Source of the DNA: Anaeromyxobacter dehalogenans 2CP-1
GTDB taxonomy: Bacteria > Myxococcota > Myxococcia > Myxococcales > Anaeromyxobacteraceae
Direction of reading: 5' to 3'
Assembly: GCF_000022145.1 (NCBI RefSeq)
Contig: NC_011891.1
Location: 1,426,001 to 1,490,000 of the forward strand
Length of the DNA stretch: 64,000 bases
The position numbers and the translations under genes are program-made. Position 1 is the first letter of the stretch; every line of letters begins with the position of its first letter. Shown piece by piece: positions 17,937 through 34,972 of the stretch. Under the pieces are notes generated by a model. The model had not been told where the DNA came from and ran no database searches. It saw nothing but the letters and a program-made list of their open reading frames with translations.

Positions 17937-17974
17937 ACATCGCCCCGCCTGGCGCCATCGCCGTGTGGCGTCAG

Positions 17975-20128: not shown

Positions 20129-20129
20129 T

Positions 20130-20142: not shown

Positions 20143-20145
20143 ACC

Positions 20146-20451: not shown

Positions 20452-20452
20452 G

Positions 20453-20803: not shown

Positions 20804-21039
20804 CACCGCGTGCCCCCGTGCTGCCTGGCCTCGATGCGGTCGAGCGTGGCGTTGGTCCGGGCCAGTGACTCCCTGACCTCGGCCATCAGGACCTCGAGGC
20901 GCTCCTTGATGGTCCGACGCCGGACGGTCCGCTCCCGTCGGCAGTCGTCGCAGTAACGTCGGTGCATGCCGACGGGCTGCTCGCGTTCGTAGGTGAACGT
21001 CTCGCCGCAGGTCCTGCAGATGCTGGTGAATGTGAACAT
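20803..21039 (-). CDS. Small zinc-ribbon protein with C-terminal coiled coil
   Basis: 78 aa. Two Cys pairs, SICRTCGETF and RYCDDCRRERT, suggest one bound zinc. The rest is a charged helix (KERLEVLMAEVRESLARTNATLDRIEA) likely to form a coiled coil. SD AGGAGG lies 8 nt before the ATG at 21039. First gene of the minus-strand set, directly below a promoter-like motif at 21058-21086. Confidence 0.75.
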   Translation of the reverse strand: MFTFTSICRTCGETFTYEREQPVGMHRRYCDDCRRERTVRRRTIKERLEVLMAEVRESLARTNATLDRIEARQHGGTR

Positions 21040-21057
21040 CGGTGTGGCCTCCTGGAG

Positions 21058-21086
21058 TACGTAGGGCGGGCCACAACAAATCGACC
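21058..21086 (-). promoter_or_regulatory. Prophage promoter-like motif, copy 1 (minus strand)
   Basis: GGTCGATTT, 14 nt, TACGTA. The start of the first block is 23 nt from the TA box, the distance between canonical -35 and -10 starts. A purine follows 5 nt after the box, then the AGGAGG and ATG of the gene at 21039. Confidence 0.6.
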
Positions 21087-21110
21087 GAGGAGCGGCGATT
21101 TCTTTTTGCG

Positions 21111-21139
21111 GGTCGCTTTTGAGACCGGGCGACTACCTA
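21111..21139 (+). promoter_or_regulatory. Prophage promoter-like motif, copy 2 (plus strand)
   Basis: GGTCGCTTT, 14 nt, TACCTA; same spacing as copy 1 and back-to-back with it, 24 bp apart. It would drive transcription to the right across 21236-21400. Confidence 0.6.
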
Positions 21140-21235
21140 GGACAGCGGAGTAACCGCCGAAGCCGAGTCGGGTGGGACCCAGGATCGTCGATAGGGCCAC
21201 CGCGGTGAAACGACGCCGGGAGTCGAAGGCTCCCC

Positions 21236-21400
21236 GTGGACACTGGATCGAAACAGCAGACCGTGGGCAAGCGACGCATGCTGGCCCCGCCGAGAGCTGG
21301 TCCGAGTAGATCGCAGTGGTCGCGCCGCCGGGCGGTGAGCCGGCAGATCAACTTCGAGGGGCACCGGGGCTTCTACCCTCTTCACCCGGTGACGGCCTGA
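21236..21400 (+). CDS. Possible 54-aa protein
   Basis: GTG start with GAAGG 6 nt upstream; reads VDTGSKQQTVGKRR... to ...FEGHRGFYPLHPVTA. It is the only reasonable reading frame downstream of promoter-like copy 2. Basic, no known family, moderate codon bias. The rest of 21040-21541 holds the two promoter motifs, a hairpin (CTCTTCCG/CGGAAGAG, 21421-21441) and the terminator below. Confidence 0.3.
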   Translation: MDTGSKQQTVGKRRMLAPPRAGPSRSQWSRRRAVSRQINFEGHRGFYPLHPVTA

Positions 21401-21494
21401 GCCGTGGTCCGTGGGACCCGCTCTTCCGAACTTCGGAAGAGGGGGCCTGGGCGGAGGATGCTGGATGGTGCAGGGCAGGGAGCGGGACCACCGA

Positions 21495-21533
21495 GGGGGA
21501 GCCGACGGCTGGAGGAAGAACGTCGGCTCCCCC
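21495..21533. terminator. Strong 13-bp inverted repeat, bidirectional terminator
   Basis: GGGGGAGCCGACG and CGTCGGCTCCCCC form a perfect 13-bp stem with a 13-nt loop. It ends 8 nt from the stop of the minus-strand gene at 21542 and is downstream of the plus-strand unit from 21111. Confidence 0.75.
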
Positions 21534-21541
21534 AGACTTTC

Positions 21542-21865
21542 TCAGCCGCCCTCGACCGTCACCCGCATCCCGTCCGGCGTGTCCAGGGCGTCGGTGTCCA
21601 CCGCGGTCCCCGCGATCAGCTCGACCAGCCGCACCTTGGGCACGTACCGCCTCCCCTTCAGCCTGAACGCGGACTCGGCACGGTCGGGGTCACGCCGCCA
21701 CCAGCCCCGCAGCACGGCGGCCCGGCTCGCCTCGTACACCTCCCGCAGCTGCGCCTGCCGGCCGGTGAACATCGGGTCCCTCCTCGCCTCCTCGTAGAGC
21801 GCGTCCCAGTAGTCCAGCGCGTACCGGACGTCGCGCGGGATGATCAGCCTCCTCCGCGTGCCCAC
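21542..21865 (-). CDS. Small protein of unknown function
   Basis: 107 aa from GTG 21865. Rich in charged helices (VRYALDYWDALYEEARRDPM, QLREVYEASRAAVLRGWWRR), with a more beta-like C-terminus ending VTVEGG. Coding bias is good. The GTG lies 2 nt after the stop of the upstream gene, so they form an operon. No family recognised. Confidence 0.65.
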   Translation of the reverse strand: MGTRRRLIIPRDVRYALDYWDALYEEARRDPMFTGRQAQLREVYEASRAAVLRGWWRRDPDRAESAFRLKGRRYVPKVRLVELIAGTAVDTDALDTPDGMRVTVEGG

Positions 21866-21867
21866 GA

Positions 21868-22158
21868 CTACGTCGGCCCCCGGTCCGCCACGCAGGCCCG
21901 CTCCTCGGCGTACTGCCAGCCCGTGAGGATCCGGTCGACGGTCAGCGACGCCGGCCACACGAGGACGTTCGTCATGCCGCAGGCCGGGCACGTGATCCTG
22001 AGGACGACCGGGATGTTCCCGGGGAGCGCGTGGTGGCCCTCGTCCAGGATCCCATCGAACAGCTCCTCGGTGACCGCGTTCACCTCGGGGCGGCACGCGC
22101 ACAGCTCGAGGCGCGCGATCCGCCCGTCCTTCTCGACCTTCCTGACCCTGTCGCTCAT
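21868..22158 (-). CDS. Small Cys-motif protein of unknown function
   Basis: 96 aa. Has LCACRPEVN near the N-terminus and ITCPACGMTNVLVW in the middle; the four Cys may bind a zinc. GGAGAA 5-6 nt before the ATG at 22158 supports this start; an ATG at 22170 would add four residues. Precedes and is coupled to the gene at 21542. Confidence 0.65.
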   Translation of the reverse strand: MSDRVRKVEKDGRIARLELCACRPEVNAVTEELFDGILDEGHHALPGNIPVVLRITCPACGMTNVLVWPASLTVDRILTGWQYAEERACVADRGPT

Positions 22159-22293
22159 CACGTTCTCCATCGGCGTCGCCGGGTTGGTCCAGCGTGGCGA
22201 CGTGCGGAGATCATCGTCATCCCGGGGTTCACCCTCCGTGGTATGAACGGTGGCATGAACGGTGACAAAAACGGATCGCGTAGGATCGTCCGG

Positions 22294-22614
22294 ATGGCGC
22301 CGCCCTGTCCGAACTGCGGATGCACCCGTCAGCGCAGGGAGCTGAGGTCGTACCGGCCGGACGCGATCGATCCGAGGCTGCGTGGCGTCGAGCCGGACGC
22401 CCGCGGGTTCATCACGCGGTGCCCCGCCTGCGGGGCCCAGGGGCTGGTGGATACGAAGGAGTGCAAGGCCTGCGGCGACACCTTCGAGTACGTCGTCTCC
22501 GCCTGGAACTGCCGTCCACGCCGGTTCTGCGAGGACCCCGACTGCCGCCGCGAGCGCCACCGGGTCACGATGCAGAGGTGGCGTGTCGACCAGGCTCGTC
22601 GAAACGGGAGGTAG
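22294..22614 (+). CDS. Multi-zinc-ribbon protein
   Basis: 106 aa with four Cys pairs: CPNCGC, CPACGAQG, CKACGDTFEY and FCEDPDCRRERH. That is enough for two zinc ribbons, so nucleic-acid binding is likely. I start at the ATG at 22294; in-frame ATGs at 22243 and 22255 lie in a short repeat (atgaacggtg twice) and lack an SD. Divergent from the operon at 22158, upstream of the HNH gene. Confidence 0.65.
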   Translation: MAPPCPNCGCTRQRRELRSYRPDAIDPRLRGVEPDARGFITRCPACGAQGLVDTKECKACGDTFEYVVSAWNCRPRRFCEDPDCRRERHRVTMQRWRVDQARRNGR

Positions 22615-22615
22615 C

Positions 22616-22644
22616 CGGCCCGTTCCCAGCTCAGCCGCTACCTA
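22616..22644 (+). promoter_or_regulatory. Prophage promoter-like motif, copy 3
   Basis: CGGCCCGTT, 14 nt, TACCTA, then TCGG and the ATG of the HNH gene at 22649. The first block is the weakest match of the set. No SD precedes this ATG. Confidence 0.45.
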
Positions 22645-22648
22645 TCGG

Positions 22649-23002
22649 ATGCGACCGTGCCTCGCCCCGAACTGCCCCGCCCTCGTCCGTCCACCCGAGA
22701 ACCGCTGCCCACGGCACCGTGCCGAGGCCGACGCCCGGTGGACCCGGACCGTCGAGATGCGGCGGGCCGAGCAGGGATGGCGGGCCTTCTACCGGACCGA
22801 TGCGTGGCGCCGCCGCCGGACCGAGCAGCTGGCCCATGAGCCGACGTGCCGGTCATGCGGGACGGACCGCCAGCTCCAGGCGGCGCACGTCGGCGTGACG
22901 CCCAAGGAGTGGGAGGCGTTCATCACGGCCCCGCTCCAGACGCTGTGCATCCGGTGCCACGCCCGGAGCCGCGCCGCCGAGAACTGGAGGGGCGGGGGGT
23001 GA
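22649..23002 (+). CDS. HNH endonuclease next to terminase
   Basis: 117 aa. Cys pairs CLAPNC/RCPRH at the N-terminus, then FYRTDAWRRRRTEQL, CRSCGTDRQLQAAHVGVT and LQTLCIRCHARSR, the layout of HNH nucleases beside phage terminases. In HK97-like phages this protein helps terminase cut and package DNA. Start codon is 4 nt past a TACCTA box, with no SD, suggesting a leaderless message. Its stop is 1 nt from the stop of the convergent gene at 23004. Confidence 0.85.
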   Translation: MRPCLAPNCPALVRPPENRCPRHRAEADARWTRTVEMRRAEQGWRAFYRTDAWRRRRTEQLAHEPTCRSCGTDRQLQAAHVGVTPKEWEAFITAPLQTLCIRCHARSRAAENWRGGG

Positions 23003-23003
23003 G

Positions 23004-23681
23004 CTACCCGTGGCCTGCGGGCCGCGTCGCCTCGGCGTAGAACTCCTCGGCGGAGATCGAGTGCTCGATGCCGCCGTGCTTCCCGAACAGGTGGAACTGC
23101 CACTTCCGGCCGAGCGTCTCCGGCGACATGTGCCAGTGGCCGTTGAAGAAGCGGCAGAAGTAGCGGCGGCCGATCTTGATCGGCGAGCGTTCGTAGTCGG
23201 CGGCCCGCTCCGGTTCGAGGACATCTTCGTCGCATGCCGATCGGGCGACCATCACCAGGTAGGCAGTCTCGAGCTCGGTCTCCCGCTTGACGGCCCGACC
23301 CTCATGACGGACGGGCTCAAGGCGGTACACGAGGCCCCAGGGCTGAGCCTCCGTAGCCAGGCCCGGGAAGGACACCTCGTAGTGCCCCTCGTGCTCCAGG
23401 AACCTGATGAACCGGTCCATCAGTTCCCGCTCCTCGTCGATCTGGGCGCGTCTCAGGATGATGCCCTCGACCCTCCTCCCGAAGTGAAGCGCCAGGAGCA
23501 GGAAGACCACACCGCCGAGGATCTCGGCGATCAGGTTACCCCTCATTCCCACGAGCGGTTCTTCGTGGAACCAGACGAAGGCGATCGACCCGATGAGGAG
23601 CACCACGGCCGCGATCAGCGACCAGGACCGCCGCGCCGCCCAGAGCCTCACGTCCAGGTACAGCCGCCTCCAGAGTCGCAT
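23004..23681 (-). CDS. Membrane protein of unknown function (possible lysogenic-conversion gene)
   Basis: 225 aa with two membrane helices (SWSLIAAVVLLIGSIAFVWF and LIAEILGGVVFLLLALHFG) and a ~150-residue cytoplasmic part containing RRAQIDEERELMDRFIRFLE and two Cys-bearing segments. It is the only gene on this strand between the HNH and terminase genes, a typical place for a 'moron' that serves the lysogen, for example in exclusion of other phages. No family recognised; start at 23681 chosen, GTG at 23696 possible. Confidence 0.7.
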   Translation of the reverse strand: MRLWRRLYLDVRLWAARRSWSLIAAVVLLIGSIAFVWFHEEPLVGMRGNLIAEILGGVVFLLLALHFGRRVEGIILRRAQIDEERELMDRFIRFLEHEGHYEVSFPGLATEAQPWGLVYRLEPVRHEGRAVKRETELETAYLVMVARSACDEDVLEPERAADYERSPIKIGRRYFCRFFNGHWHMSPETLGRKWQFHLFGKHGGIEHSISAEEFYAEATRPAGHG

Positions 23682-23730
23682 CTCGGCATCATGCACCGTC
23701 AGTCCGACACGGCAGCCACGGGGTGCGGGC

Positions 23731-23767
23731 GACGATCGGAGTGACCCGGGCCGCAGGCCATGGGGAA
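23731..23767. repeat. Intergenic repeat, copy A
   Basis: Begins with GACGATCGGAGTGACCCGG and continues to GGCCATGGGGAA. Nearly identical to 40945-40982, with the core CGGAGTGACCCGG-nn-CCGCnGGCC again at 34022. Lies in the gap between the minus-strand membrane gene and the terminase. Confidence 0.7.
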
Positions 23768-23899
23768 CCAAGGCCTGGGCCGTCTGGGAGGATCGGCGGG
23801 CAGCGTGGTGATTCGAGGGGGCATCCAGCGGCCCATCCAAAATGACGGCGACCGGATTCTGGACCCCGCGCTAGGTCGGGCGTCGGCGCTTACACTTCG

Positions 23900-23928
23900 A
23901 GTCAAGAACAGGACCGACCGCCTACCTA
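23900..23928 (+). promoter_or_regulatory. Prophage promoter-like motif, copy 4
   Basis: AGTCAAGAA, 14 nt, TACCTA, then CTCG and the GTG of the small terminase gene at 23933. No SD. Confidence 0.5.
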
Positions 23929-23932
23929 CTCG

Positions 23933-24346
23933 GTGCCGGCACGTCGGGTTCCCACCGAGATCAAGCGCAGGACCGGGACGGTCAACGTCACCCGCGAGGG
24001 CAGGCGGCCGCCGGAGCCCGCCGTCGCCTGGGTCCCGATGCCGGATCCGCCCGACGGCTCAGACGACGACAGCAGTCGTGTCTGGTCCGACCTGAAGACC
24101 GTGGTCGATGCGCTCGGCGCCGCCGCCCAGAGCGACGTCCCCGCCTTCAGGAACCTGGTCCGCCTCCAGCTGCTCCTCACGCAGGCCTATGCCGCCATCC
24201 CCGTCGACGCCGACCTGGTGCTCCGCATCCAGGCCCGGGTCGACAGGCTCATGGCCGAGTTCGGCCTCACCCCAGCCAGCCGCACGAGGCTGGCCGCGCT
24301 GAAGACCCCCGAGGCGACCTCGGCGCTCGCGAGGCTCTTCAACTGA
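23933..24346 (+). CDS. Phage terminase small subunit (P27-like)
   Basis: 137 aa. Assigned by position (directly before the large subunit, TGATG overlap) and by a P27-like layout: basic N-terminus with RRVPTEIKRRTGT, Pro-rich linker, helical segments (VWSDLKTVVDALG, NLVRLQLLLTQAYAAI), and SRTRLAALKTPEAT at the end. It would recognise packaging-start DNA and bring it to TerL. GTG start 4 nt after a TACCTA box. Confidence 0.85.
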   Translation: MPARRVPTEIKRRTGTVNVTREGRRPPEPAVAWVPMPDPPDGSDDDSSRVWSDLKTVVDALGAAAQSDVPAFRNLVRLQLLLTQAYAAIPVDADLVLRIQARVDRLMAEFGLTPASRTRLAALKTPEATSALARLFN

Positions 24347-26016
24347 TGTCGGCGCCGAGGCGCAGGAACTGGGTCCGGCTCGCCGAGCGGTACGCGCAGG
24401 ACGTGGTCGATGGGACCGTCCCCGCGTGCCCCGAGGTGCTCCAGGCGTGCCGCCGGTTCCAGCGCGACCTCACGAACCCCGAGTTCAGGCTCGACCGCGA
24501 TGCAGCCAGTCGAGCGTGCACCTTCGTGAACCTCTTCCTCGAGGTCCTCCCGTGGGAGGCCTTCCTCATCGTCAACGTCTTCGGCTTTCGCCGGAGGGAC
24601 ACCGGGCACCGTCGCTTTACGTTCGTCAACGTCTGGATCGGCAAGGGGAACGGGAAGTCGGCTTTGGCAGCGGCCCTCGGCCTCTACCTCGCGTTCATGG
24701 ACGGGGAGCAGGACGCCGAGGTGCTCACCTACGCCTTCAGTCGGGAGAACACGCGGCACGTCTGGGAGACGGCCAAGCAGATGCTCCGCAGGAAGCAGGG
24801 CACCGAGCTGGACGTGGCCAAGGAGTACGAGATCGAGCTGAACGCGGTGACGCTGTACCAGGCCCGGACCAACTCGGTCTTCAAGGCCAACAGCTCCAAC
24901 CCCGACGCCCAGCACGGCAGCCGGCCGTCGGCGCTGATCATCGACGAGCTGCACACGGTCCGCGATGAGCTGTGGGACACGCTCAAGGGCGCGATCGTCA
25001 AGCGCGCGAACAGCCTCATGCTGACGCTCTCGACGGGCGGCTTCGACATCTCGTCCAAGGGCTTCAAGGTCTACGAGTACGACCGGAACATCCTGGCCGG
25101 CGTCGAGCAGGACGACGACACGTTCGTCCTCATCTACACGGCGCCGACCGACGATATCTCCGACGAGGCCAACTGGCGGAAGGCCAACCCGTCGCTCGAG
25201 GCCGGGATCATCGACATCAGGAAGTTCCGGGCCACCGCCCGACAGGCCCTCAGCGTGCCCGGTCAGCGGGGCCAGTTCCTCGCCCTGCACATGAACCGCT
25301 GGACGGGGGCCGCCGAGGGCTTCATCGACGTGGCCCGATGGGATGCGCTGCCCAGGACCACGGTGCAGGACTGCATCGATCGCGGGCTTCCGTGCGTGGT
25401 CGGCATGGACCCGGCCGACACGAACGACATCTTCGGGGTGGCGATCGTGTTCTTCGAGGAGCCGGCGCCGATGCAGCGCCGTTACCACGTCTTCTTCCAG
25501 AACCACCTCTCAGAGAGCGGCGTGCAGAGGCACCCGCGCTCCTCCCTGCTCCGGGACTGGGCCGCGGCCGGCCACCTCACGATCCACCCCGGCCACAGCC
25601 TCAGGATCGAGGAGGTCGTCCACCCGCTGGTCGACCTCTGGCGGACTCTCCCCCAGGCCGAGTTCATCTGGGACCCGAAGTTCGCCAAGGCCGGCGTCGA
25701 CAGCCTGCTACGGATGGAGGGCGTCCCCGAGGAGCAGTCGGTCCAGCAGCCGATGACGCCCGCCGAGATGACCGTCCCGCTGCGGGAGATGGGCGCCGCT
25801 GTGAACGAGGGCCGCCTGCTCCACGACGGGAACCCGTGCGTCTCCTGGCAGGTCGGCAACCTCCTCGTGGAGAGCCGCGGGGCGATCCTCAAGCCGGTGA
25901 AGCAGTCGGACACGGCCAAGATCGACGCGCCGATGGCCCTGGTGACGGCGTTGAAGCGGGCCTCGGTGATCCCAGTCGGCCACGACGACGGCCCCTTCCT
26001 GGCGACCTGGGCCTGA
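24346..26016 (+). CDS. terL: Phage terminase large subunit (Terminase_1 family)
   Basis: 556-aa packaging motor and nuclease. ATPase: Walker A WIGKGNGKSAL (about residues 97-106), Walker B ALIIDELHTV (about 197-206), and a coupling motif LMLTLSTGG. Nuclease: GMDPADTNDIFG (about 351) and later acidic residues in EFIWDPKFAKAGVD. Full length for the family. Starts inside the TGA of the small subunit gene. Cuts concatemers and drives DNA into the prohead through the portal. Confidence 0.95.
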   Translation: MSAPRRRNWVRLAERYAQDVVDGTVPACPEVLQACRRFQRDLTNPEFRLDRDAASRACTFVNLFLEVLPWEAFLIVNVFGFRRRDTGHRRFTFVNVWIGKGNGKSALAAALGLYLAFMDGEQDAEVLTYAFSRENTRHVWETAKQMLRRKQGTELDVAKEYEIELNAVTLYQARTNSVFKANSSNPDAQHGSRPSALIIDELHTVRDELWDTLKGAIVKRANSLMLTLSTGGFDISSKGFKVYEYDRNILAGVEQDDDTFVLIYTAPTDDISDEANWRKANPSLEAGIIDIRKFRATARQALSVPGQRGQFLALHMNRWTGAAEGFIDVARWDALPRTTVQDCIDRGLPCVVGMDPADTNDIFGVAIVFFEEPAPMQRRYHVFFQNHLSESGVQRHPRSSLLRDWAAAGHLTIHPGHSLRIEEVVHPLVDLWRTLPQAEFIWDPKFAKAGVDSLLRMEGVPEEQSVQQPMTPAEMTVPLREMGAAVNEGRLLHDGNPCVSWQVGNLLVESRGAILKPVKQSDTAKIDAPMALVTALKRASVIPVGHDDGPFLATWA

Positions 26017-26030
26017 TCGTCACGCGATCC

Positions 26031-26059
26031 GGTCACTTTCGTCGGTGACCGCCTATCTA
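26031..26059 (+). promoter_or_regulatory. Prophage promoter-like motif, copy 5
   Basis: GGTCACTTT, 14 nt, TATCTA, then CCCT and the GTG of the portal gene at 26064. The first block is also half of an inverted repeat, GGTCAC-N8-GTGACC (26031-26050). Confidence 0.6.
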
Positions 26060-26063
26060 CCCT

Positions 26064-27377
26064 GTGAAGAAGGCCCCCCGTGCACGCTCGGCCAGGTCGA
26101 GGCGCAGTGGCTCCCGCTCCGCCCCGCGATCGAACCGCCTCTACGTCGGACCCCACGACGTCTTCCTGCGGGGCCACGACCTCGCCCTCGCCAACCGGAC
26201 CCTCGGTGTCCCGCTCGACATCAAGGAGCCGACGCTGGAGCAGGCGAAGTCGGTCTCCACCGTCTGGGCATGCATCCGTTTCATCGCCGAGAACCTCGCC
26301 TCCGAGCCGCTCCGGGTCGTCCGCTGGGATGCCGCTGGCCGCAAGGAGATCCTGGATGACCACGCCCTGGTCCGGTTGCTGAACGAGCGGGCCAACCCCT
26401 GGACGCCGGCGGCCACCCTCCGTGAGGCCCAGGTCGACCAGGCCCTCACCCACGGTAACGGCTTCTGGCAGATCGTCAGGTCGCAGTCGGGCCGGATCGT
26501 CGAGCTCCGCATGCTCCGGTCCGAGTGGATGGCGTACCGCGACCTCGCCGACGGCTCCCGCGTCTACGTCTACAGGCCCGGAGCCGACGAGGTGGTCCTC
26601 GCGCCCGCCGACGTCGTTCACATCTACGGTCCATCCGAGGACGGCCTGTGGGGCGTCGGCATCATGAGGCGGGCCTGGCGGGCCATCGTCAACGCGTACA
26701 CCGCCGAGACGTACACCCTGATGCTCTACGCACAGGGCGTGAACGTCGGCGGGATCATCACCCCAGCCCGCAAGCTCGACACGGACGAGAGAGAGGCGTT
26801 CGTCCGCTCGCTCCGAGCCCGGAGCCAGGGCACGGAGAACAGCCACTCCTGGCTGCTGCTGCCGCCGGGCGCCGAGGCGAAGGAGTGGAGCCCGCCCGAC
26901 GCCGAGAGGATGCAGATGGTCGAGGCGCAGAACTTTCTCGTCCAGGAGCTGGCCCGCTACTTCCGTGTGCCGCTGCACATCGTCCAGGTCGTCGCGGCGA
27001 GCCAGGGCTGGGGCAAGAACCTCTCCGAGCTGAACACCAGCGTCGTCAGGAACCTGCTCTATCCGTGGAAGGTCCGCATCGAGCAGGAGATGACGGCGAA
27101 GCTGCTCTCCCCACAGGAGATCGAGCAGGGCACGTACGTTGAGCTGGACCTCGCCCGCCTCGAACGCGGCGACGGCAAGTCGTTGGTCGACCAGCTGGCC
27201 GTCGAACTGGACCGCGGGGTCATCACCGTCAACGAGTGGCGCGAGGCGACCGGCCGCAACGACATCGGCCCGGCCGGTGACGTGCACCAGGTCCGCGCCG
27301 CGCCGACCTCTCCGCCCGCCGCTGGCGACAGGGCCGACGGACCGGAGGAGGAGACCGATGAAGATCAACCGGAGTGA
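26064..27377 (+). CDS. Phage portal protein (HK97 family)
   Basis: 437 aa. Matches HK97-type portals: VWACIRFIAENLASEPLRVV, DHALVRLLNERANPW, ALTHGNGFWQIVR, VVHIYGPSEDGLWGVG and the C-terminal TVNEWREATGRND. Forms the dodecameric ring at one head vertex through which DNA passes. GTG start, no SD, 4 nt after a TATCTA box. The N-terminal ~20 residues are basic. Overlaps the protease gene by 20 nt. Confidence 0.95.
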   Translation: MKKAPRARSARSRRSGSRSAPRSNRLYVGPHDVFLRGHDLALANRTLGVPLDIKEPTLEQAKSVSTVWACIRFIAENLASEPLRVVRWDAAGRKEILDDHALVRLLNERANPWTPAATLREAQVDQALTHGNGFWQIVRSQSGRIVELRMLRSEWMAYRDLADGSRVYVYRPGADEVVLAPADVVHIYGPSEDGLWGVGIMRRAWRAIVNAYTAETYTLMLYAQGVNVGGIITPARKLDTDEREAFVRSLRARSQGTENSHSWLLLPPGAEAKEWSPPDAERMQMVEAQNFLVQELARYFRVPLHIVQVVAASQGWGKNLSELNTSVVRNLLYPWKVRIEQEMTAKLLSPQEIEQGTYVELDLARLERGDGKSLVDQLAVELDRGVITVNEWREATGRNDIGPAGDVHQVRAAPTSPPAAGDRADGPEEETDEDQPE

Positions 27378-28140
27378 CCTGAGCGCTGCCTTCCCGTGGA
27401 TGGCCGATCCCCGGGTCGCGGCTCGGCTGTCGACGCTGTCCAGGGTCGACGCCAGGGTCGACAAGAAGGCCGAGGTCGTGGACGTCTACCTCTACGACGT
27501 CATCGTGACGCCCGAAATCGAGGCGCTGTTCGGCGTCGGCATCTCCGCCCAGGGCTTCCGCGAGCAGCTCAAGCAGGCCGACGGCGCCCGCCGAGTGAAC
27601 GTACACATCAACTCCCCGGGCGGCGACGTTGACCAGGGGAAGGCGATGCTCAGCGGCCTCCGGTCGCTGCGCGCGGGTGAGAAGGTGGCCGTGGTCGAGG
27701 GCCTGGCGGCCTCCGCCGCGACGGTCGTGGCCATGGGCGCCGACCGCGTCGTGATGGAGCCCGAGGCCGTCTTCATGATCCACGAGGCGAGCGGCGGGAT
27801 GTGGGGCTCGGCCGCCGACCACGAGAAGTTTGCCGAGATCCTCCGGATGGACAACGCGGCCGTCCGTGCCCTTTACGCCAAGAAGACGGGCCTCGACGAC
27901 GGCCGAATCGCGGAGCTGATGGCCGCCCAGGAGCCGGGCGGCACCGTCCCGGGCACGTACATGGACGCGGCCCGTGCCAGGGAGCTCGGCTTCGCGGATG
28001 AGGTCCTCGCCCCACCGACCAAGGAGGCCGCCGCGGCGTTCAGGGCGACCGCCTCCGTCGCCACCCCGAACCAGATCGCCGTGAAGCTGGCCTTCGCCCG
28101 CTCACGGCAGCAGCACCCGCCGGCGGACCGCCGCGGCTAA
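27358..28140 (+). CDS. ClpP-like prohead maturation protease
   Basis: 260 aa, S14 family. HINSPGGDVDQGKAM, catalytic Ser119 in GLAASAATVVAMGADR, catalytic His in FMIHEASGGMWG, and a later conserved Asp. Cleaves scaffold and capsid precursor during head assembly. SD GGAGGAGGAG sits before the ATG at 27358, inside the end of the portal gene. The C-terminal tail is Ala- and Arg-rich. Confidence 0.93.
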   Translation: MKINRSDLSAAFPWMADPRVAARLSTLSRVDARVDKKAEVVDVYLYDVIVTPEIEALFGVGISAQGFREQLKQADGARRVNVHINSPGGDVDQGKAMLSGLRSLRAGEKVAVVEGLAASAATVVAMGADRVVMEPEAVFMIHEASGGMWGSAADHEKFAEILRMDNAAVRALYAKKTGLDDGRIAELMAAQEPGGTVPGTYMDAARARELGFADEVLAPPTKEAAAAFRATASVATPNQIAVKLAFARSRQQHPPADRRG

Positions 28141-28162
28141 CCACAAGCAAGGAGCAGGAAGC

Positions 28163-29473
28163 ATGGACATCATCGCAACGCTCCGCAGCCGCCAGAACGA
28201 GATCGAGGCGCGCCTGTCGGAGTTCACAAAGCAGCTCACGGAGGGGACCGTCCTCTCCGACGAGCAGCTCAAGGAGGTCGACGACCTCAAGGCGGAGTTC
28301 GACCGCAACGCGGCCCAGGTCCGCGCGGCCGACATCGCGGCCAACGTGCAGGTCCAAGCCGCGGCGCCGACCTACAAGGTCAGCGTGGCCTCCGCCGGAC
28401 AGGCCCCGGCGTTCGTCCGGGGCGCCAAGGCCTTCAAGGGCCTCGGTGACATGGCCATGGCGATCTTCCGCCAGCGGACCAATACGGCCTCGCCGGCCGA
28501 GGTCCAGCGCCTCGCCGACGAGCACGGTCGAAAGCTCGAGTCGTGGAGGCGGGAGAACGCGCTCGACGGCGGCATCAACATCGGCACCGACTCCCAGGGC
28601 GGCTACGCCGTCCCCGGCGAGTATGACACCACCGTCGATCGCCTCGTCCTGAACGACCAGTCGCTCCTGCCGCTCTGCCGGCAGCGGCCGATGAGCCAGG
28701 ACGTGGCCAAGGTGCCCACGAACGACGTCTACCCGTGGGCGGTCTACTCCGGCACGGATGGCCCGGCCGTCGTGTCCGAGGGCGGGACGTACACCTCGGC
28801 ATCGATCGTCCTCGGCCAGGCGACCCTGACGCTGTCCAAGGTCGGTCACATCGTGCCCTTCACCCTGGAGGCCGCGAAGTTCGGGGCCGTCACGGCGGCG
28901 GACCTCATGGACGGCGCGCAGCTGGCCCTGACCTACAAGGTCAACCAGACCATCGTGGCGGGCCTCACCGGCGCGGCCGGGGCCCACGTCGTCCCCTCCG
29001 GCTCCACGGCCTCCGGCTCGTTCACCTACGACGACAGCGTGGCGATGTACAACCGCCTCCCGTCGGAGTGGATCGGCCCCTCGACCCGCTGGGTCATCAA
29101 CCCGGACATGCGCGAGAAGTTCCAGAAGTTTGCGCTCTCCGGCACCCAGGGCTTCGTCCCCGTCTACCTCCCGGCCAACGCGCAGCTCGCGCCGTTCGGC
29201 TCCGTGCTCCACGGGATCCCCGTCCAGCCGTTCTTCGGCATGCGCCCCATCGGCACGCAGGGTGACGTCCTCCTCTGCGACTTCAGCAAGGTCTGGGCGG
29301 GCACCGCCGGGCCGGTCCTCCTGGACTACGACGCCTACGCCGGCTTCGAGAACGGCAAGGGCGCGTTCCGCTGGACCTACTTCCTCGGCGTCACGCCTCG
29401 CCTCACGACCAAGCCGCAGCCGCCCAACGGCCAGGCGCTCTCCGCATACGTCGTCAAGGCGTCCCGCAGCTGA
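28163..29473 (+). CDS. Major capsid protein (HK97 fold)
   Basis: 436 aa. Residues 1-60 are a coiled-coil delta/scaffold domain (ATLRSRQNEIEARLSEFTKQ), likely removed by the protease. The capsid body starts near residue 130 (NIGTDSQGGYAVP) and includes QRPMSQDVAKVPTNDV, FTLEAAKFGAVTAADLMDG, RWVINPDMREKFQ and LLCDFSKVW. Forms the icosahedral shell. SD AGGAGCAGGAAGC. An inverted repeat follows the stop. Confidence 0.94.
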   Translation: MDIIATLRSRQNEIEARLSEFTKQLTEGTVLSDEQLKEVDDLKAEFDRNAAQVRAADIAANVQVQAAAPTYKVSVASAGQAPAFVRGAKAFKGLGDMAMAIFRQRTNTASPAEVQRLADEHGRKLESWRRENALDGGINIGTDSQGGYAVPGEYDTTVDRLVLNDQSLLPLCRQRPMSQDVAKVPTNDVYPWAVYSGTDGPAVVSEGGTYTSASIVLGQATLTLSKVGHIVPFTLEAAKFGAVTAADLMDGAQLALTYKVNQTIVAGLTGAAGAHVVPSGSTASGSFTYDDSVAMYNRLPSEWIGPSTRWVINPDMREKFQKFALSGTQGFVPVYLPANAQLAPFGSVLHGIPVQPFFGMRPIGTQGDVLLCDFSKVWAGTAGPVLLDYDAYAGFENGKGAFRWTYFLGVTPRLTTKPQPPNGQALSAYVVKASRS

Positions 29474-29492
29474 TCCGCTGGTGGCCTGAACG

Positions 29493-29516
29493 GGAGCGGC
29501 TCCCCGGAGCCACTCC
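29493..29516 (+). terminator. Hairpin after the capsid gene
   Basis: GGAG-C-GGCTCC pairs with GGAGCC-A-CTCC (one C/A mismatch), 20 nt past the capsid stop. No T-run, so it may be a partial terminator that leaves capsid message more abundant than downstream genes. Confidence 0.55.
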
Positions 29517-29535
29517 TCCTTGAGGCAACTAGACC

Positions 29536-30081
29536 ATGGCGACGCTCGCTTCACTGACCGACCTGAAGGGCTACCTCGGCATCACGGCCGCGGCCGAGGA
29601 TGCCCTGCTGTCCCGGCTGCTGACCGGCTCCTCGGACTTCCTCGAGAAGGCGACCGGCCGCACGTTCGCGGCCGAGGGCCACACCGGCACCTTCGACGGG
29701 GACGACTCCCGACTGCTCTTCCCCACGCACACGCCGATCCTGTCGGTGACCTCGCTCACCGTGGACGGCCGGACCATCACGGAGCGCGGGTCGTGGGACG
29801 CCGAGGGGTTCGTGGTGCGACCGTACTACCTCGAACTGTCTTCCGGCCTGTGCTTCACCCGTGGACTGGCGAACGTTGGCCTCCAGTACTCGGCCGGCTT
29901 CGAGACCGTGCCCGGTGACGTGCAGCAGGCCGTCATCACCCTCTCGGCGCTGGCATACAAGGAGCGCACCCGGGTCGGCGTCCTGAGCAACACCGTCCAG
30001 GGCGAGGCCTTCAGCTACCAGACCCTCACGCTGCCGCAGTCGGTGCAGTCGGTGGTCGACGCGTGGAGGGTGCTCCTCTGA
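29536..30081 (+). CDS. Head-tail connector (gp6-like)
   Basis: 181 aa. The start SLTDLKGYLGITAAAEDALLSRLL and EKATGRTF are typical of phage gp6-like connectors that sit below the portal. Then beta-rich middle (ILSVTSLTVDGRTI) and helix VPGDVQQAVITLSALAYKER. Its stop overlaps the next start (TGATG). Confidence 0.85.
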   Translation: MATLASLTDLKGYLGITAAAEDALLSRLLTGSSDFLEKATGRTFAAEGHTGTFDGDDSRLLFPTHTPILSVTSLTVDGRTITERGSWDAEGFVVRPYYLELSSGLCFTRGLANVGLQYSAGFETVPGDVQQAVITLSALAYKERTRVGVLSNTVQGEAFSYQTLTLPQSVQSVVDAWRVLL

Positions 30082-30491
30082 TGGCGGGCAGGGTCACCGT
30101 CAACGGAGGGTGGATCGATGCGGAGCGGCACCTCCTCCGCGTCCCGTCCGAGCTCGTCGCGCAGACCAAGGAGTTGGTCGGCACCGAGATGCGGGCGGCA
30201 GCCGGCGACATGCTCGCCAACGTCACCGGCGGTGTGCTCAAGACGGTGAGCGGCAGCCTCGCGGCATCCGTGAAGGGGACCGCCCGCGTCCGGCAGGGCT
30301 ACACCGTCAGCGGACGCGCCGGCAGCCGGTACTTCATCGGTCGATTCTGGGATGACGGCTTCACCCGCCACGGACGCCGCTACCGGCGTCCCTGGGCCGA
30401 GCCGGTCGTCAACGCCCGGGCCCAGGCCATCGCCGACAACATCGAGCGGCTGATCGACCGCGTCTACACGGATGGGGGCTACGGCCGGTGA
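30081..30491 (+). CDS. Head-tail joining / HK97 gp10-like protein
   Basis: 136 aa. The order, length and segments such as ELVGTEMRAAAGDML, GRAGSRYFIGRFWDDGFTRHGRRY and RPWAEPVVNARAQAIADNI fit HK97 gp10-type tail-completion proteins. Starts at ATG 30081, inside the TGA of the previous gene. Overlaps the next start (GTGA). Confidence 0.75.
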   Translation: MAGRVTVNGGWIDAERHLLRVPSELVAQTKELVGTEMRAAAGDMLANVTGGVLKTVSGSLAASVKGTARVRQGYTVSGRAGSRYFIGRFWDDGFTRHGRRYRRPWAEPVVNARAQAIADNIERLIDRVYTDGGYGR

Positions 30492-30910
30492 CGAACTCGC
30501 ACGAGCAGATCTTCGCGGCCGTGTTTGCCCGCCTCTCGGGCGCGCTGACCGGGGCCGTGACTTCGGGGCGCCGGGTGAGGAGCTGGGAGGAGGTCGGCCC
30601 CGAGGCGCAGCCGGCGTTCTTCCTCGAGCAGCTCGGCGCGACGCTGGAGAACGCTCCGCCCGGCCCGAGCCGCCAGACGGTGCGCGCCAGCGCCCTGTTC
30701 TACGTCCACTCGGACACGGCGGACGGGCCGATGCCGCTGTTGAACTCGCTGGTCGCGATCGCGACCGGCAGCCTCGTTGAGGCGAGGGGGATCCCTACGA
30801 CGCTCGGCGGGCTCGTGGCGTCTGCCCGGCCGACCGACATCACGTACGGCGGCGGCAACCTCGGGGCCCAGGGCATCGCCGCAATCACGATCGAGATGAG
30901 GACGGCCTGA
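30488..30910 (+). CDS. Probable tail terminator protein
   Basis: 140 aa from GTG 30488. The position between gp10-like and tail-tube genes, the length, and the layout (HEQIFAAVFARLSGAL, FFLEQLGATLENAPPGPSRQTVRASALFYVHS, IAAITIEM at the end) match gpU-type tail terminators that cap the tail at the head-proximal end. Sequence evidence alone is modest. Confidence 0.65.
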   Translation: MTNSHEQIFAAVFARLSGALTGAVTSGRRVRSWEEVGPEAQPAFFLEQLGATLENAPPGPSRQTVRASALFYVHSDTADGPMPLLNSLVAIATGSLVEARGIPTTLGGLVASARPTDITYGGGNLGAQGIAAITIEMRTA

Positions 30911-30937
30911 CCCGGAACGGGCCGACACCGCTAGTTA
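30909..30937 (+). promoter_or_regulatory. Prophage promoter-like motif, copy 6
   Basis: GACCCGGAA, 14 nt, TAGTTA, before the tail-tube gene. First block identical to copy 7. The gene it precedes has a normal SD (AAGGAGA), so this message would have a 5' leader. Confidence 0.5.
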
Positions 30938-30968
30938 AGACGCCAACGACGGCAAGGAGACACGACAC

Positions 30969-31679
30969 ATGGCTTCGATCACATACGGCTCGGGCAAGCT
31001 GTTCTTCAAGAACCCGACCACCTCCCAGGTCTACCAGGTGATGGAGATGACCGACGTGGAGCTGAGCTACGAGGGCTCCACGAAGGAGTACTACGGCTCG
31101 CGGCAGTTCCCGATCCTGAGCGTGACCGGACAGAAGAAGGTCAGCGGGAAGGCGGGGACGGCATTCATCGACGGCCGGCTGCTTTCGGTCATCCTGAGCG
31201 GAACGACCACGGCCGGCCGTGAGGTGCTGAACGAGGTCAGCGCCACCGGCTCCTCGGCGACGGTCTCGCCGACGGGGACTTCCTTCGCCGCCGACTACGG
31301 CGTCGTGGACGCGGCCCGGAACCCGATGAACATCACGTCCTCGGCCCCGGCCGTCGGCGCGTACGCCGTGAACACCGGGTCCGGCATGTACACGTTCAAC
31401 GCCGCGGAACCCGACACGAAGACGATCACCTACGCCTACAACACGGGCTCCGGCTCAACCTTCACGATGAAGAACGCGCTCCAGGGCGTGCAGACTGGGT
31501 TCACCCTCTTCCTGCAGCAGCGCGGATCCGACGGCGAGCTGTTCGGCGTGAAGCTGAACTCGGTCGTCATCCCCGGGCTGTCGTTCGCGTTCAAGGCAGA
31601 GGACTTCTCGGTCACGAACCTCGACTTCGTGGCGCAGGTCGATGCGGCGGGCGACCTCGGTAAGGCCTTCACGGAGTGA
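30969..31679 (+). CDS. Major tail tube protein
   Basis: 236 aa. Begins SITYGSGKLFFKNPTTSQVYQVMEMTDVELSY with KEYYGSRQFPILS, a pattern seen in siphovirus tube proteins, and has beta-rich repeats throughout; no enzymatic motif. The placement between terminator and chaperone genes supports it. SD AAGGAGA 9 nt before ATG. The next gene begins in its last codons. Confidence 0.85.
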   Translation: MASITYGSGKLFFKNPTTSQVYQVMEMTDVELSYEGSTKEYYGSRQFPILSVTGQKKVSGKAGTAFIDGRLLSVILSGTTTAGREVLNEVSATGSSATVSPTGTSFAADYGVVDAARNPMNITSSAPAVGAYAVNTGSGMYTFNAAEPDTKTITYAYNTGSGSTFTMKNALQGVQTGFTLFLQQRGSDGELFGVKLNSVVIPGLSFAFKAEDFSVTNLDFVAQVDAAGDLGKAFTE

Positions 31680-31993
31680 CCGCGATGCTCGATGCCGTGA
31701 TGATCGGCGGTCGCGAGCTGCGGCCCGCGCCCCTGACGTTGAGGGGGATCCATGCGCTGATGAAGGCGGGCCACGTCTCCAAGCTGCCCGGGTACGCGGA
31801 GCTGCCCGATCACGAGCAGCTCGTGCTGATGGTCGGGTTCGTGGCGGCCGCGCTCGGCGTCGAGGAGTCATGGCTCTGGGACAACGTCGGCGTCGCCGAC
31901 TTCGATGCGCTCCGACGCCTATTCGAGGGCGTACTGCTGGCGAGCAGGCTGGTGGGGGAGAAGCCCGAACCGGGGGAAGCGGTGAGCCGCTGA
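31676..31993 (+). CDS. Tail assembly chaperone, upstream frame (gpG-like)
   Basis: 105 aa from GTG 31676. Lies between tail tube and tape measure, the fixed place of G/GT-type chaperones. Ends ...SRLVGEKPEPGEAVSR. Two G-GGG-GA sites (31954-31960 and 31972-31978) allow a -1 shift into the frame that continues to 32190. Chaperones of this type bind the tape measure before the tube polymerises. Confidence 0.8.
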   Translation: MTAMLDAVMIGGRELRPAPLTLRGIHALMKAGHVSKLPGYAELPDHEQLVLMVGFVAAALGVEESWLWDNVGVADFDALRRLFEGVLLASRLVGEKPEPGEAVSR

Positions 31994-32190
31994 CCGAGGA
32001 CGGGTTGGCGGCGCTGATCGTGATGCTCATGGCCGACCTCCATTTCACGTGGGACCGGGCGTGGGAGTTGACCTGGCCGGACGTGCTCCTCATCGACCAG
32101 GGCAATCGGTACCGGAGCAGGGCGACGGAGCGGGCTCCTAGGGCGGACAAGAGGAGTCACGCAGAGTTTATGAAGTTCATCGGGGGCTGA
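31972..32190 (+). CDS. Tail assembly chaperone, -1 frameshift extension (gpT-like)
   Basis: Reads GGSGEPLTEDGLAALIVMLM to ...KRSHAEFMKFIGG. The frame lacks a start with SD near its beginning and is open upstream through the end of the gene at 31676, so it is best read as the T part of a G-T fusion. DLHFTWDRAWELTWPDVLLI resembles small tail-chaperone extension domains. An internal start at GTG/ATG near 32020 is the alternative. Confidence 0.7.
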   Translation, partial: GGSGEPLTEDGLAALIVMLMADLHFTWDRAWELTWPDVLLIDQGNRYRSRATERAPRADKRSHAEFMKFIGG

Positions 32191-32194
32191 GCAC

Positions 32195-33613
32195 ATGGCG
32201 AAGCAGATCGGCCTCGGCGTCGTCATCGACTTCGCCGACGCGAAGCGTGGCCTGGAGCAGGTCAGGGGCGGGATGGAGAAGGCCCGGTCCTCCGCCCAGA
32301 CCTTCGGAAACGCGCTCGGCTCGCTCAGCTCGGAGCTAGGCTCGGCCGGCCGTGCGTTCGGCGGGCTCGCGTCGATGCTGGCGGCCGGGTCGCTGGCAGG
32401 TGCGGCGTCGGCGGCCTTCATGACCATCATCGGTTACCTGAAGGACGTCCAGAGGGAGACGGCCGAGACCGCCAAGGCGTTCGATGAGAAGCTGAAGGGG
32501 AGCCTCGAAAAGCTCACGGGCTACGTCGATGTGGCCCGTGCCGCGCGGCAGGAAGCCCAGGGGATGGACCCGAAGCTGATCGAGTTCGGGAGGGAGCTGG
32601 TCGCCGTCCAGCAGAAGATGCAGGCGATCAGGAAGCTCGCCGGCGAGAAGCAGGGCGGCAACCTGTTCCCCGAGCAGTTCCGCGAGATGGAGGAGCTCCG
32701 GAAGCAGTACGACCGGGTCATCGAGACCCGCCGTCAGTACGTGCAGGAGACCGCGGCGGGAGCCTCGGCCAAGGCGGCCACGAAGGCCGCCCAGGACGCC
32801 CGGCGGGCCGGCCAGGACGCCACGAGGGATGCCGCGCGGCAGGAGGAGGAACGCGCCCGGCAGGGACAGGCCGCGCTCGATGCCCGGGCCCGCTCCTACG
32901 AGAGAGCGCAGAAGCAGCGCCTGGACGATGCCAGGCGGCAGGCGCTCGCCGAGGCGGAGGCGATGACGGGCTACGAGGAGGATGGTGCCCGGGCCCCCGA
33001 GTACCAAGACCTCAAGTCCAAGGACTTCGCCGCCGACCAGCGGAGGTACAACGACGAACTGACGCGGAGCGTCGCCCTGAGCCAGCAGTGGGGCTCGACG
33101 CTCGGTGACGTGTTCGGCCAGCTCGTGGCGGGCCAGATGAACGCCGCCCAGGCGGTCGCCGCGGTCGGGCAGCAGATCATCCAGACGGTCACCCAGACGG
33201 CGATCGCGTCGATCACCGCGGACGCCTCCCGAGCCGCGGCCGGAGCCGCCGCGTCGCAGGCGGGCATCCCAGTGGTCGGTCCGGCGCTGGCGGTCTCGGC
33301 CATGGGCGCGATGCTGGCCGCCGTCCTCGGCCTGCTCGGTAACATCGGTGCGAGGGCCAAGGGCGGACCCGTCTTCTCACGGTCCCCGTACGTCGTCGGC
33401 GAGCGCGGCCCCGAGCTGTTCGTCCCGAGCATGGGCGGGACCATCGTGCCGAACGGAGCGCTCGCCGCAGCCGGCGCCGGTGCTGGGCCCTCGGTCGTCA
33501 ACAACTACGTCATCCAAGCCATGGACACGCGGTCGTTCTACTCGGCCCTCAAGAGCAACGACGGCCAGCTGATCCGGGTGCTGAACGAGGCGGCCAAGGA
33601 CGGGAGGTTCTGA
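32195..33613 (+). CDS. Tape measure protein
   Basis: 472 aa. N-terminal half: helical with IDFADAKRGLEQVRGGMEK and a hydrophobic patch (GGLASMLAAGSLAGAASAAF). Middle: long charged coiled coil. C-terminal half: membrane-like stretch (VVGPALAVSAMGAMLAAVLG), then GGPVFSRSPYVVGERGPELF and GGTIVPNGAL, a classic tape-measure end motif. By the usual relation of ~1.5 A per residue the tail would be about 70 nm, short for a siphovirus. Confidence 0.9.
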   Translation: MAKQIGLGVVIDFADAKRGLEQVRGGMEKARSSAQTFGNALGSLSSELGSAGRAFGGLASMLAAGSLAGAASAAFMTIIGYLKDVQRETAETAKAFDEKLKGSLEKLTGYVDVARAARQEAQGMDPKLIEFGRELVAVQQKMQAIRKLAGEKQGGNLFPEQFREMEELRKQYDRVIETRRQYVQETAAGASAKAATKAAQDARRAGQDATRDAARQEEERARQGQAALDARARSYERAQKQRLDDARRQALAEAEAMTGYEEDGARAPEYQDLKSKDFAADQRRYNDELTRSVALSQQWGSTLGDVFGQLVAGQMNAAQAVAAVGQQIIQTVTQTAIASITADASRAAAGAAASQAGIPVVGPALAVSAMGAMLAAVLGLLGNIGARAKGGPVFSRSPYVVGERGPELFVPSMGGTIVPNGALAAAGAGAGPSVVNNYVIQAMDTRSFYSALKSNDGQLIRVLNEAAKDGRF

Positions 33614-33616
33614 TCG

Positions 33617-34000
33617 ATGTCCAACGACGTGTTCCCCGACCTGCCGGGCCTGGACGTTGAGGTCGATCGGACGACGCTCTACCGGACCAGCACCTACGAG
33701 ACAGTCGGAGGCCGTGAGCAGCGGGCCGCCTGGTGGTCGTCGCCGAGGTACCGGTACCGGCTCCGCTGGAACCTCCTCCGCGCCGACGTCGCGGCACCGG
33801 CCCCGTGGGCGGCGTACAGCGAGGCGGCCGCAGTCCAGCGGTTCTTCGACGTCCACCTCGGCGCCTGGGACTCGTTCCTGATGGTCGATCCGTACTCGGC
33901 CGCCCAGGTCCGCGTCCGCTTCGTCGAGGACAGCCTGCGGTTCACCCGGGAGGTCCCCGGAGTCTGGGCGGCGCAGGCCGAGGTCATCTCGGTGAAGTGA
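33617..34000 (+). CDS. DUF2460-like distal tail protein
   Basis: 127 aa. GREQRAAWWSSPRYRYRL and FFDVHLGAWDSFLMVDPYSA resemble DUF2460/distal tail proteins and GTA gp12. It would cap the tube and attach the tip. The stop codon lies in the loop of the 15-bp inverted repeat below. Confidence 0.75.
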   Translation: MSNDVFPDLPGLDVEVDRTTLYRTSTYETVGGREQRAAWWSSPRYRYRLRWNLLRADVAAPAPWAAYSEAAAVQRFFDVHLGAWDSFLMVDPYSAAQVRVRFVEDSLRFTREVPGVWAAQAEVISVK

Positions 34001-34024
34001 CTCGGTCACCCGAGATGACCTCGG
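33978..34024 (+). terminator. 15-bp inverted repeat spanning a stop codon
   Basis: CCGAGGTCATCTCGG (33978-33992) and its exact complement CCGAGATGACCTCGG (34010-34024) with a 17-nt loop that holds the stop of the DUF2460 gene. No T-run. Directly followed by promoter-like copy 7, so one unit would end and the next begin here. Confidence 0.7.
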
Positions 34025-34027
34025 AGT

Positions 34028-34056
34028 GACCCGGAACCGCAGGCCGCAGCTACCTA
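34028..34056 (+). promoter_or_regulatory. Prophage promoter-like motif, copy 7
   Basis: GACCCGGAA, 14 nt, TACCTA, then TTAC and a GTG (34061) in frame with the next gene, though that gene has a better start at 34103. Confidence 0.55.
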
Positions 34057-34102
34057 TTACGTGCACGCTCCGTCACATCGGAGCCCATCGGAGGAGCCCA
34101 GG

Positions 34103-34969
34103 ATGAAGTCCATCGGTGTCGAGCTGCAGCCGGTCCTCTACGGTGCGGACGTCCACCTCATGGCGGAGCTGTTCACGTTCGAGTTCAGGGAGGGGACGCA
34201 GCGCTGGACCTCGGCGGACACTGACGTCGTCTCCGGCTCCGCCACCTGGTCCTGCTCAGGACCGATCATCACGAAGGGGAAGTCGAGGACACAGTCCGGC
34301 CTGCAGGTGGACACGCTCGACGTGACCCTGGTCCCGGGCACCGGGGCGCTCGGCGGAACGCCGATGCTCCAGGCGGCGCTCCAGGGCTCATTCGATGACG
34401 TCCGGATCCTCGTGCAGCGGGCCTTCTTCTCCGGCAGCTGGGGATCCCTGGCCGGCATGGTCACCGACTTCGACGGGCGGGTCGTCAACGTGGAGCCCGC
34501 GTCCACCCGGATCGAGCTGACCGTGAAGTCCCTGATGGCCTCGATGTCCCGGGCCTTCCCTCCCCGGGCCAACCAGGCCCAGTGTCCGTACATCCTCGGC
34601 GACGGCCGGTGCGGTGTGAGCATGTACCCGCACACCTTCGGTCTGGCGGCCTCGTCTGGCTCGACCACGACGGTGGTCCGGGTCGGCTCATCGACCTTCC
34701 CCGTGGATGACCTCAAGATCGGAACGCTCTCGGTGGTCTCGGGCCCGATGAGCGGGAGCGTCAGGACCATCGTCAGGAACTCCCAGGTGGCCACCGGCAT
34801 CACGGCCGTCGAGGTCACCCCGGCACTGCCGCAGGTCCCGGTCTCGGGCACATCCCTGGTGCTCAGTCGTGGCTGCGACCACACCCGGGTCAAGTGCCAC
34901 TACACCTTCTCAAACATCGCCCGTTTCGGCGGCTTCCCGGACGCCCCGAGCACGGACGCAGGACGCTGA
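34103..34969 (+). CDS. DUF2163 / BR0599-type tail protein
   Basis: 288 aa. The N-terminal part fits DUF2163 (LMAELFTFEF, ITKGKSRTQSGLQVDTLDV). The C-terminal 85 residues are a BR0599-type domain: RGCDHTRVKCHYTFSNIA then RFGGFPDAP. Equivalent to GTA gp13, part of the tail hub. SD GGAGGAG 7 nt before ATG 34103 makes this the start rather than GTG 34061. Confidence 0.82.
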   Translation: MKSIGVELQPVLYGADVHLMAELFTFEFREGTQRWTSADTDVVSGSATWSCSGPIITKGKSRTQSGLQVDTLDVTLVPGTGALGGTPMLQAALQGSFDDVRILVQRAFFSGSWGSLAGMVTDFDGRVVNVEPASTRIELTVKSLMASMSRAFPPRANQAQCPYILGDGRCGVSMYPHTFGLAASSGSTTTVVRVGSSTFPVDDLKIGTLSVVSGPMSGSVRTIVRNSQVATGITAVEVTPALPQVPVSGTSLVLSRGCDHTRVKCHYTFSNIARFGGFPDAPSTDAGR

Positions 34970-34972
34970 CGC

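Follow-up and report, generated by a model that had tools for sequence, protein, structure and literature searches.

Does a motif that recurs before the genes of a small prophage mark a promoter class of the phage's own? The question is raised by a 64,000-nucleotide stretch of the soil bacterium Anaeromyxobacter dehalogenans 2CP-1 (NCBI RefSeq assembly GCF_000022145.1, contig NC_011891.1, positions 1,426,001 to 1,490,000), here called the window, in which an initial annotation described seven sites consisting of a first block, exactly 14 nt and a TA-rich box, and read them as a prophage-specific promoter class. Our results support that reading. We put at about three in four the probability that the seven sites form one promoter class for the lytic programme of a small temperate phage family, with a phage factor giving specificity; promoter status is what we infer from a motif whose placement, conservation and near-absence from host DNA are observed directly.

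Seven spaced sites ahead of prophage genes

The prophage (16409..41143, ~24.7 kb) is bounded by 45-bp attachment (att) repeats, which are the 3′ part of a tRNA-Cys gene (16409–16453) and a copy of it at 41099–41143. The tRNA-Cys gene is followed by an integrase gene, and the gene content includes terS, terL, portal, protease, capsid, adaptors, tape measure and tail proteins. The sites, written as first block, spacer (N14) and box, are as follows.

Site m, 21058..21086, minus strand: GGTCGATTT (21086–21078), N14, TACGTA (21063–21058); predicted transcription start about 21053.
Site a, 21111..21139, plus strand: GGTCGCTTT, N14, TACCTA; divergent from site m, predicted start about 21144.
Site b, 22616..22644, plus strand: CGGCCCGTT, N14, TACCTA; ATG of an HNH gene at 22649.
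Site c, 23900..23928, plus strand: AGTCAAGAA, N14, TACCTA; GTG of terS at 23933.
Site d, 26031..26059, plus strand: GGTCACTTT, N14, TATCTA; GTG of the portal gene at 26064.
Site e, 30909..30937, plus strand: GACCCGGAA, N14, TAGTTA; upstream of a probable tail-tube gene, whose ATG at 30969 has a Shine–Dalgarno sequence.
Site f, 34028..34056, plus strand: GACCCGGAA, N14, TACCTA; upstream of a tail-assembly gene.

All seven were recovered where they had been placed: the two blocks always start at a distance of 23 nt, and a purine follows the box by 5 nt in every case (7/7). The first block at 22616, singled out as the weakest, is indeed weak. Within the window TANNTA occurs at just these seven places, all inside the prophage. 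The 14-nt spacer holds here and in the first of two related prophages described below, but varies by about 1 nt in the second. The annotation had also placed every site just before a transcription unit. This stands for six of the seven boxes, which a gene start follows within 45 nt (positions this close ahead of a gene start make up 5.8% of the prophage; P = 2.5e-7), and fails for site a, at 21111, which has no recognisable gene behind it. Site m is predicted to drive the leftward zinc-ribbon operon.

Because the prophage is lower in GC than its flanks (68.3% versus 74–76%) and every A+T-rich word is enriched in it, dinucleotide shuffles of the prophage itself are the fair test of chance. Measured in this way, the TANNTA count (7 versus 3.0 expected, p = 0.035) is only mildly unusual, owing to the A+T-richness of the prophage, and the count in the other prophage so treated gave p = 0.115. 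The spaced motif is far rarer in shuffled sequence: this prophage holds five copies of GRYC-N3-WW-N14-TANNTA, where 0.01 are expected and none of 200 shuffles held more than 1, and the other holds four, again against 0.01.

Conservation in related prophages and rarity in host DNA

Viral contigs, GTDB genomes and 195 genomes of the phylum were searched with the terL, capsid and tail proteins; the only close relatives returned were two prophages of Anaeromyxobacter sp. PSR-1, the remainder being distant (terL 28–32% and tail 26–32% identity). PSR-1 prophage 1 (contig C332) is 80–89% identical to the present one over much of its length; PSR-1 prophage 2, the third prophage (contig C333), is divergent, with terL 43–45% identical. 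Each of the six TANNTA boxes of the C332 prophage stands before the counterpart of the gene behind m, b, c, d, e or f, at unchanged block spacing, and none occurs in 28 kb of flanking host sequence. Between the two prophages the NN of the box changes (TACGTA to TATGTA, TACCTA to TATCTA) while TA..TA is constant.

Individual sites can be followed across the set. The counterpart of m lies before the zinc-ribbon gene (C332 5473, minus strand). Site b keeps its box and N4-RTG at C332 6316 and C333 48719 (minus strand), where the box before the HNH gene is TACCTA, and the counterpart of c (C332 7597) reads GGTCAAGAA-N14-TATCTA-N4-GTG. Before the portal gene, site d corresponds to GGCCTGGAA-N14-TATCTA in C332 and to GGCCTGAAA-N14-TAGATA in C333. 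Site e recurs at C332 14901, with a relative shifted by 1 nt at C333 38263 (minus strand), and f is kept at C332 18022 and C333 34990 (minus strand), the C333 tail-gene site reading GGCCCAAAA-N14-TACCTA. The third prophage accordingly carries the motif before its HNH, portal, tube and tail genes. PSR-1 prophage 1 retains sites even beside replaced flanking sequence or a replaced downstream gene: its portal, protease and capsid are only 29–38% identical in amino acids to those here, yet the site before the portal gene is present. A matrix trained on the seven sites minus the box gave its best score in all of C333 at one base from a TANNTA box, which falls inside an open reading frame. Between these two prophages, otherwise largely 80–95% identical, the portal–protease–capsid module (26064–29473 here, L008 9748–13340 there) is swapped, and the swap is bounded by site d.

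In host DNA, too, the spaced motif is far rarer than in the prophage; neither comparison, with host or with shuffled sequence, refuted the annotation's reading. A search of the whole genome (5,029,329 bp) for GGTCRCTTT-N14-TANNTA, allowing one mismatch, gave three matches, all within the prophage. Across nine Anaeromyxobacter genomes (~46 Mb, of which the three prophages make up ~77 kb), the strict pattern GRYC-N3-WW-N13-M-TAYCTA matched eight times, seven of them in the three prophages, and the looser GRYC-N3-WW-N14-TANNTA matched 21 times, 11 of them there. Reversed patterns gave 1 match for the strict and 19 for the looser form, a harsh control because the reversed box, ATNNAT, is a commoner word; TANNTA itself occurs 15 times in 660 kb of host sequence. 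In being largely restricted to phage DNA and standing ahead of phage operons, the motif has what characterizes a phage-specific promoter class. The occurrence of the same sites in three prophages, and their scant use by the host, suggest a phage-made factor that redirects the host transcription machinery.

Two matches in host DNA deserve mention. One (G000:C1:2611160; L028 near 11160), reading GGTCCATTA-N14-TACGTA, is nearly identical in two other Anaeromyxobacter genomes and overlaps an ordinary, TTGACT-containing promoter-like sequence. The sole strict match in another species (G005 2069507), which we set aside, precedes a host gene for a long protein with repeated CxxCH motifs, with no recognised prophage around it.

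A third element, start codons and the sigma-70 misfit

Alignment of 15 sites, near-copies excluded, brought out a further element. In the strongest upstream column, at −35 relative to the box, 11 of the 15 sites have T; this T belongs to an AGAT-like sequence 12 nt ahead of the first block. Next in rank come the G, G, Y, W and W of the block and a C immediately preceding the box. When the sites were taken out of register, their columns seldom or never scored as high.

Downstream, the start codon stands exactly 4 nt after the box at sites b (ATG), c (GTG) and d (GTG), and no Shine–Dalgarno sequence was seen before these three codons. The arrangement is shared by the HNH gene of C333 and by a GIY-YIG-like gene at C333 51648, and TANNTA-N4-RTG occurs 4, 3 and 4 times in the three prophages versus 0.15, 0.15 and 0.75 in shuffles. 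Leaderless messages are therefore implied for the HNH, terS and portal genes; such phage messages are known from Thermus phage P23-45. At site m and its PSR-1 counterpart it is a Shine–Dalgarno sequence, AGGAGG, that starts at the fifth base after the box, and site f offers two possible starts, GTG at 34061, 4 nt after the box, or ATG at 34104 with a Shine–Dalgarno sequence. To judge from these distances, transcription most likely starts around the fifth base past the box, a position that would suit b, c, d and m alike. Transcription would then begin on the start codon itself at the three leaderless genes and just before the Shine–Dalgarno sequence of the zinc-ribbon gene. As a side observation, the top full-matrix match in C333 is a TACCTA-N4-GTG directly before a GIY-YIG-like homing endonuclease gene (C333 51638–52190; L013 11638–12190).

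The box does not suit sigma-70, which requires an A at −11 and a T four positions on, at −7; TANNTA cannot provide this spacing because its A and T stand three apart. Between 20500 and 35200 we found no sigma-70-like promoter (TTGACA-like −35, TANNNT −10, 16–18 nt apart). Along with the lack of a comparable set of host sites, these results lend indirect support to the earlier suggestion that an unusual factor may be needed. An extracytoplasmic-function (ECF)-type −35 element, GGAAC, was considered, as CGGAAC is present in several sites; its spacing to the box is too short by our reckoning, most sites lack it, and we rejected it.

We propose that three elements are read, namely the TANNTA box, the block GRYCNNKWW 23 nt ahead of it and, ~35 nt ahead, an AGAT-like sequence, and that transcription most likely starts ~5 nt past the box. 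Host RNA polymerase would transcribe, and a small phage-encoded activator or sigma-like protein would confer specificity. The AGAT-like third element, the fixed start-codon distance and the misfit between TANNTA and sigma-70 are new beyond the initial annotation; they are also the features that make the class unusual.

Candidate regulators and rival explanations

Domain scans of the prophage proteins turned up no recognisable gene for replication, for a CI-like repressor or for a sigma factor. Common to all three prophages are two small proteins whose features may indicate DNA binding, and these are the candidate regulators.

20803..21039, minus strand: zinc-ribbon protein of 78 amino acids with a long C-terminal helix; candidate regulator, predicted to be transcribed from site m.
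39648..40130, minus strand: protein of 160 amino acids; candidate DNA-binding activator with a predicted fold like the MotA C-terminal domain (MotA-CTD) or DUF5655.

The zinc-ribbon protein is 36–38% identical to its relatives in both PSR-1 prophages, with four invariant cysteines. Its model (pLDDT 90.8) has no significant fold match, a DksA/TraR zinc finger match lies below the curated cut-off, and neither Pfam nor PHROGs gave an Ogr match for these proteins. The 39648–40130 protein has relatives of 79% and 32% identity in the other two prophages, and others on chromosomes of Myxococcota outside recognised phages. Three helices and six strands make up its model, which is of moderate quality (pLDDT 69.5); MotA-CTD is described with the same numbers (PMC2988021). 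The best Protein Data Bank (PDB) matches in Foldseek are the DNA-binding domain of T4 MotA (E = 0.11, not significant; probability 0.90), and a DUF5655 phage protein in a viral structure library matches better (E = 0.013). No sequence similarity of the protein to MotA was found, and MotA used as a sequence query gave no match; we treat MotA-like identity as a lead. The two candidate regulators could be tested directly.

Time and again, promoter classes specific to a phage have exposed new ways of redirecting bacterial RNA polymerase. We found no description of such promoters in the literature searched on Anaeromyxobacter prophages and myxophage promoters, and what is reported here is a new consensus within this known kind. 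T4 late promoters have a TATAAATA box, depend on gp55 and start a few nucleotides after the box. Like the present sites they have a −10-like box specific to the phage, and its final six bases, TAAATA, agree with TANNTA, but they have no upstream block, whereas here there are two conserved upstream elements and the boxes are mostly TAYCTA; no gp55 relative was recognised in the prophage. The late promoters of P2 and P4 serve several late operons through the small zinc-finger activators Ogr and Delta. Several late operons and a small zinc-binding phage protein as candidate activator are found here as well; compared on protein family, the likeness ends with the absence of an Ogr match.

Middle and late promoters of Mu, activated by Mor and C, combine a poor −35 with an activator site just upstream of RNA polymerase, and several late promoters occur within one phage, as here (PMC4287176). 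Mu sites, however, are dyad-symmetric with a −10 hexamer, whereas GGTC-N12-GACC occurs only at d and PSR-1 c and is absent at e, f and b, and no Mor or C relative was recognised. Phage P23-45 likewise redirects host RNA polymerase to middle and late promoters that make no use of a −35 element (PMC7403470), but these are of the extended −10 type, which host sigma-A reads together with gp39, and no such protein was recognised here. At T4 middle promoters the MotA box, consensus WWWTGCTTtA with GCTT as its centre and ACTT and GATT as described variants, lies 12 ± 1 bp from the −10 element and is centred at −30 (PMC2988021). As in this AsiA/MotA sigma appropriation, a phage-specific block of 9–10 bp near −30 replaces the −35 element ~12–14 nt before the box, and a small phage protein may bind the block (PMC2988021, PMC6755090). 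The differences are that the boxes here are TANNTA and not a good sigma-70 −10 element (TAtaaT), and that the block is GRYCNNKWW, with only a weak fold match as a relation to MotA. The distance is similar, and GCTTT, ACTTT or GATTT is present at a, d and m alone, the others having GAA or GTT. No AsiA relative was recognised in domain scans of the non-structural proteins, in which AsiA itself was not used as a query.

One version of the favoured explanation would have the 39648–40130 protein act as MotA does, binding the 9-nt block near −30 and so replacing the −35 contact of the host sigma factor. The position of the block and its distance to the box match T4 middle promoters (PMC2988021), three sites carry the right words, the top PDB matches and the counts of helices and strands point the same way, and the protein is kept in all three prophages. 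Set against this are a non-significant fold match to a model of moderate quality, the lack of sequence similarity, the relatives outside recognised phages, a box without the sigma-70 −10 spacing that T4 middle promoters require, and GAA in place of CTT at most other sites. We consider this version improbable, if the foremost of the alternatives. Still more speculative is the full picture of a ~25-kb temperate Myxococcota phage, lacking any recognisable sigma factor, repressor or replication module, whose lytic genes share a three-part promoter class read by a MotA-like double-wing protein (39648–40130); if true, control of the sigma-appropriation type would operate in a temperate phage of small size, and its packaging genes would be translated from leaderless messages.

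Hosts of this phylum are expected to have many sigma factors, and the domain scans recognised none of phage origin, so that the phage might have adopted the consensus of a host alternative sigma factor. Such a factor should have host targets, yet matches are almost absent from the 46 Mb, and the one conserved in three strains (G000 2611160) overlaps the TTGACT-containing sequence. A phage factor is therefore the likeliest, and the host factor a doubtful proposition, ranked next after the MotA-like activator. Alternatively, a phage repressor or activator could use the sites as operators, with promoters of the usual host type overlapping them: the inverted repeat at d and PSR-1 c would fit, a single binding protein could switch all lytic genes, and no other repressor was recognised in the domain scans. 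Most sites, however, lack the repeat, 20500–35200 holds no TTGACA/TANNNT promoter, and conservation is highest in the TA box. Promoters are favoured by the constant distance to start codons and Shine–Dalgarno sequences, and we regard operators as quite unlikely. Chance, in the form of A+T-rich words in the A+T-richer gaps between phage genes, could account for the modest TANNTA p values but not for spaced motifs found 5 and 4 times against 0.01 expected, nor for their conservation across three prophages with replaced flanks; it is very improbable.

Several points weigh against a phage promoter class. The first block is degenerate, with two spellings, and is weak at site b, and the enrichment of TANNTA by itself is partly base composition. 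Another reversed-pattern control gave 4 matches, equal to the 4 of the pattern itself, and the matrix lacking the box ranks some true C333 sites poorly. The comparison rests on three prophages from two strains, and conservation of c, e and f in PSR-1 prophage 1 is partly due to common descent of the flanks. Finally, nothing but non-coding sequence (21145–21545) follows site a, and no TANNTA was found at its position in PSR-1 prophage 1. If the phage promoter class is confirmed, it would supply a compact, host-silent promoter/activator pair for bacteria with few genetic tools.

The stretch behind site a, ~400 nt without a recognisable gene, ends in a strong hairpin (21504–21540) at the end of an opposing gene. 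It is possibly a small phage RNA; an Rfam search of it returned no family, and its predicted folding is no better than that of shuffles. Both PSR-1 prophages also carry non-coding DNA at this place, of different sequence. All three ~25-kb prophages (this one, L008–L009 and L011–L013) are without recognisable replication, repressor and sigma genes, and a phage-satellite or helper-dependent lifestyle is possible. Within the present prophage, a DUF4041/T5orf172 (GIY-YIG-like) protein at 18094–19527 adjoins the integrase and has a 95% identical copy in PSR-1 prophage 1, and a protein of 121 amino acids with several CxxC pairs (22249–22614) lies directly upstream of site b.

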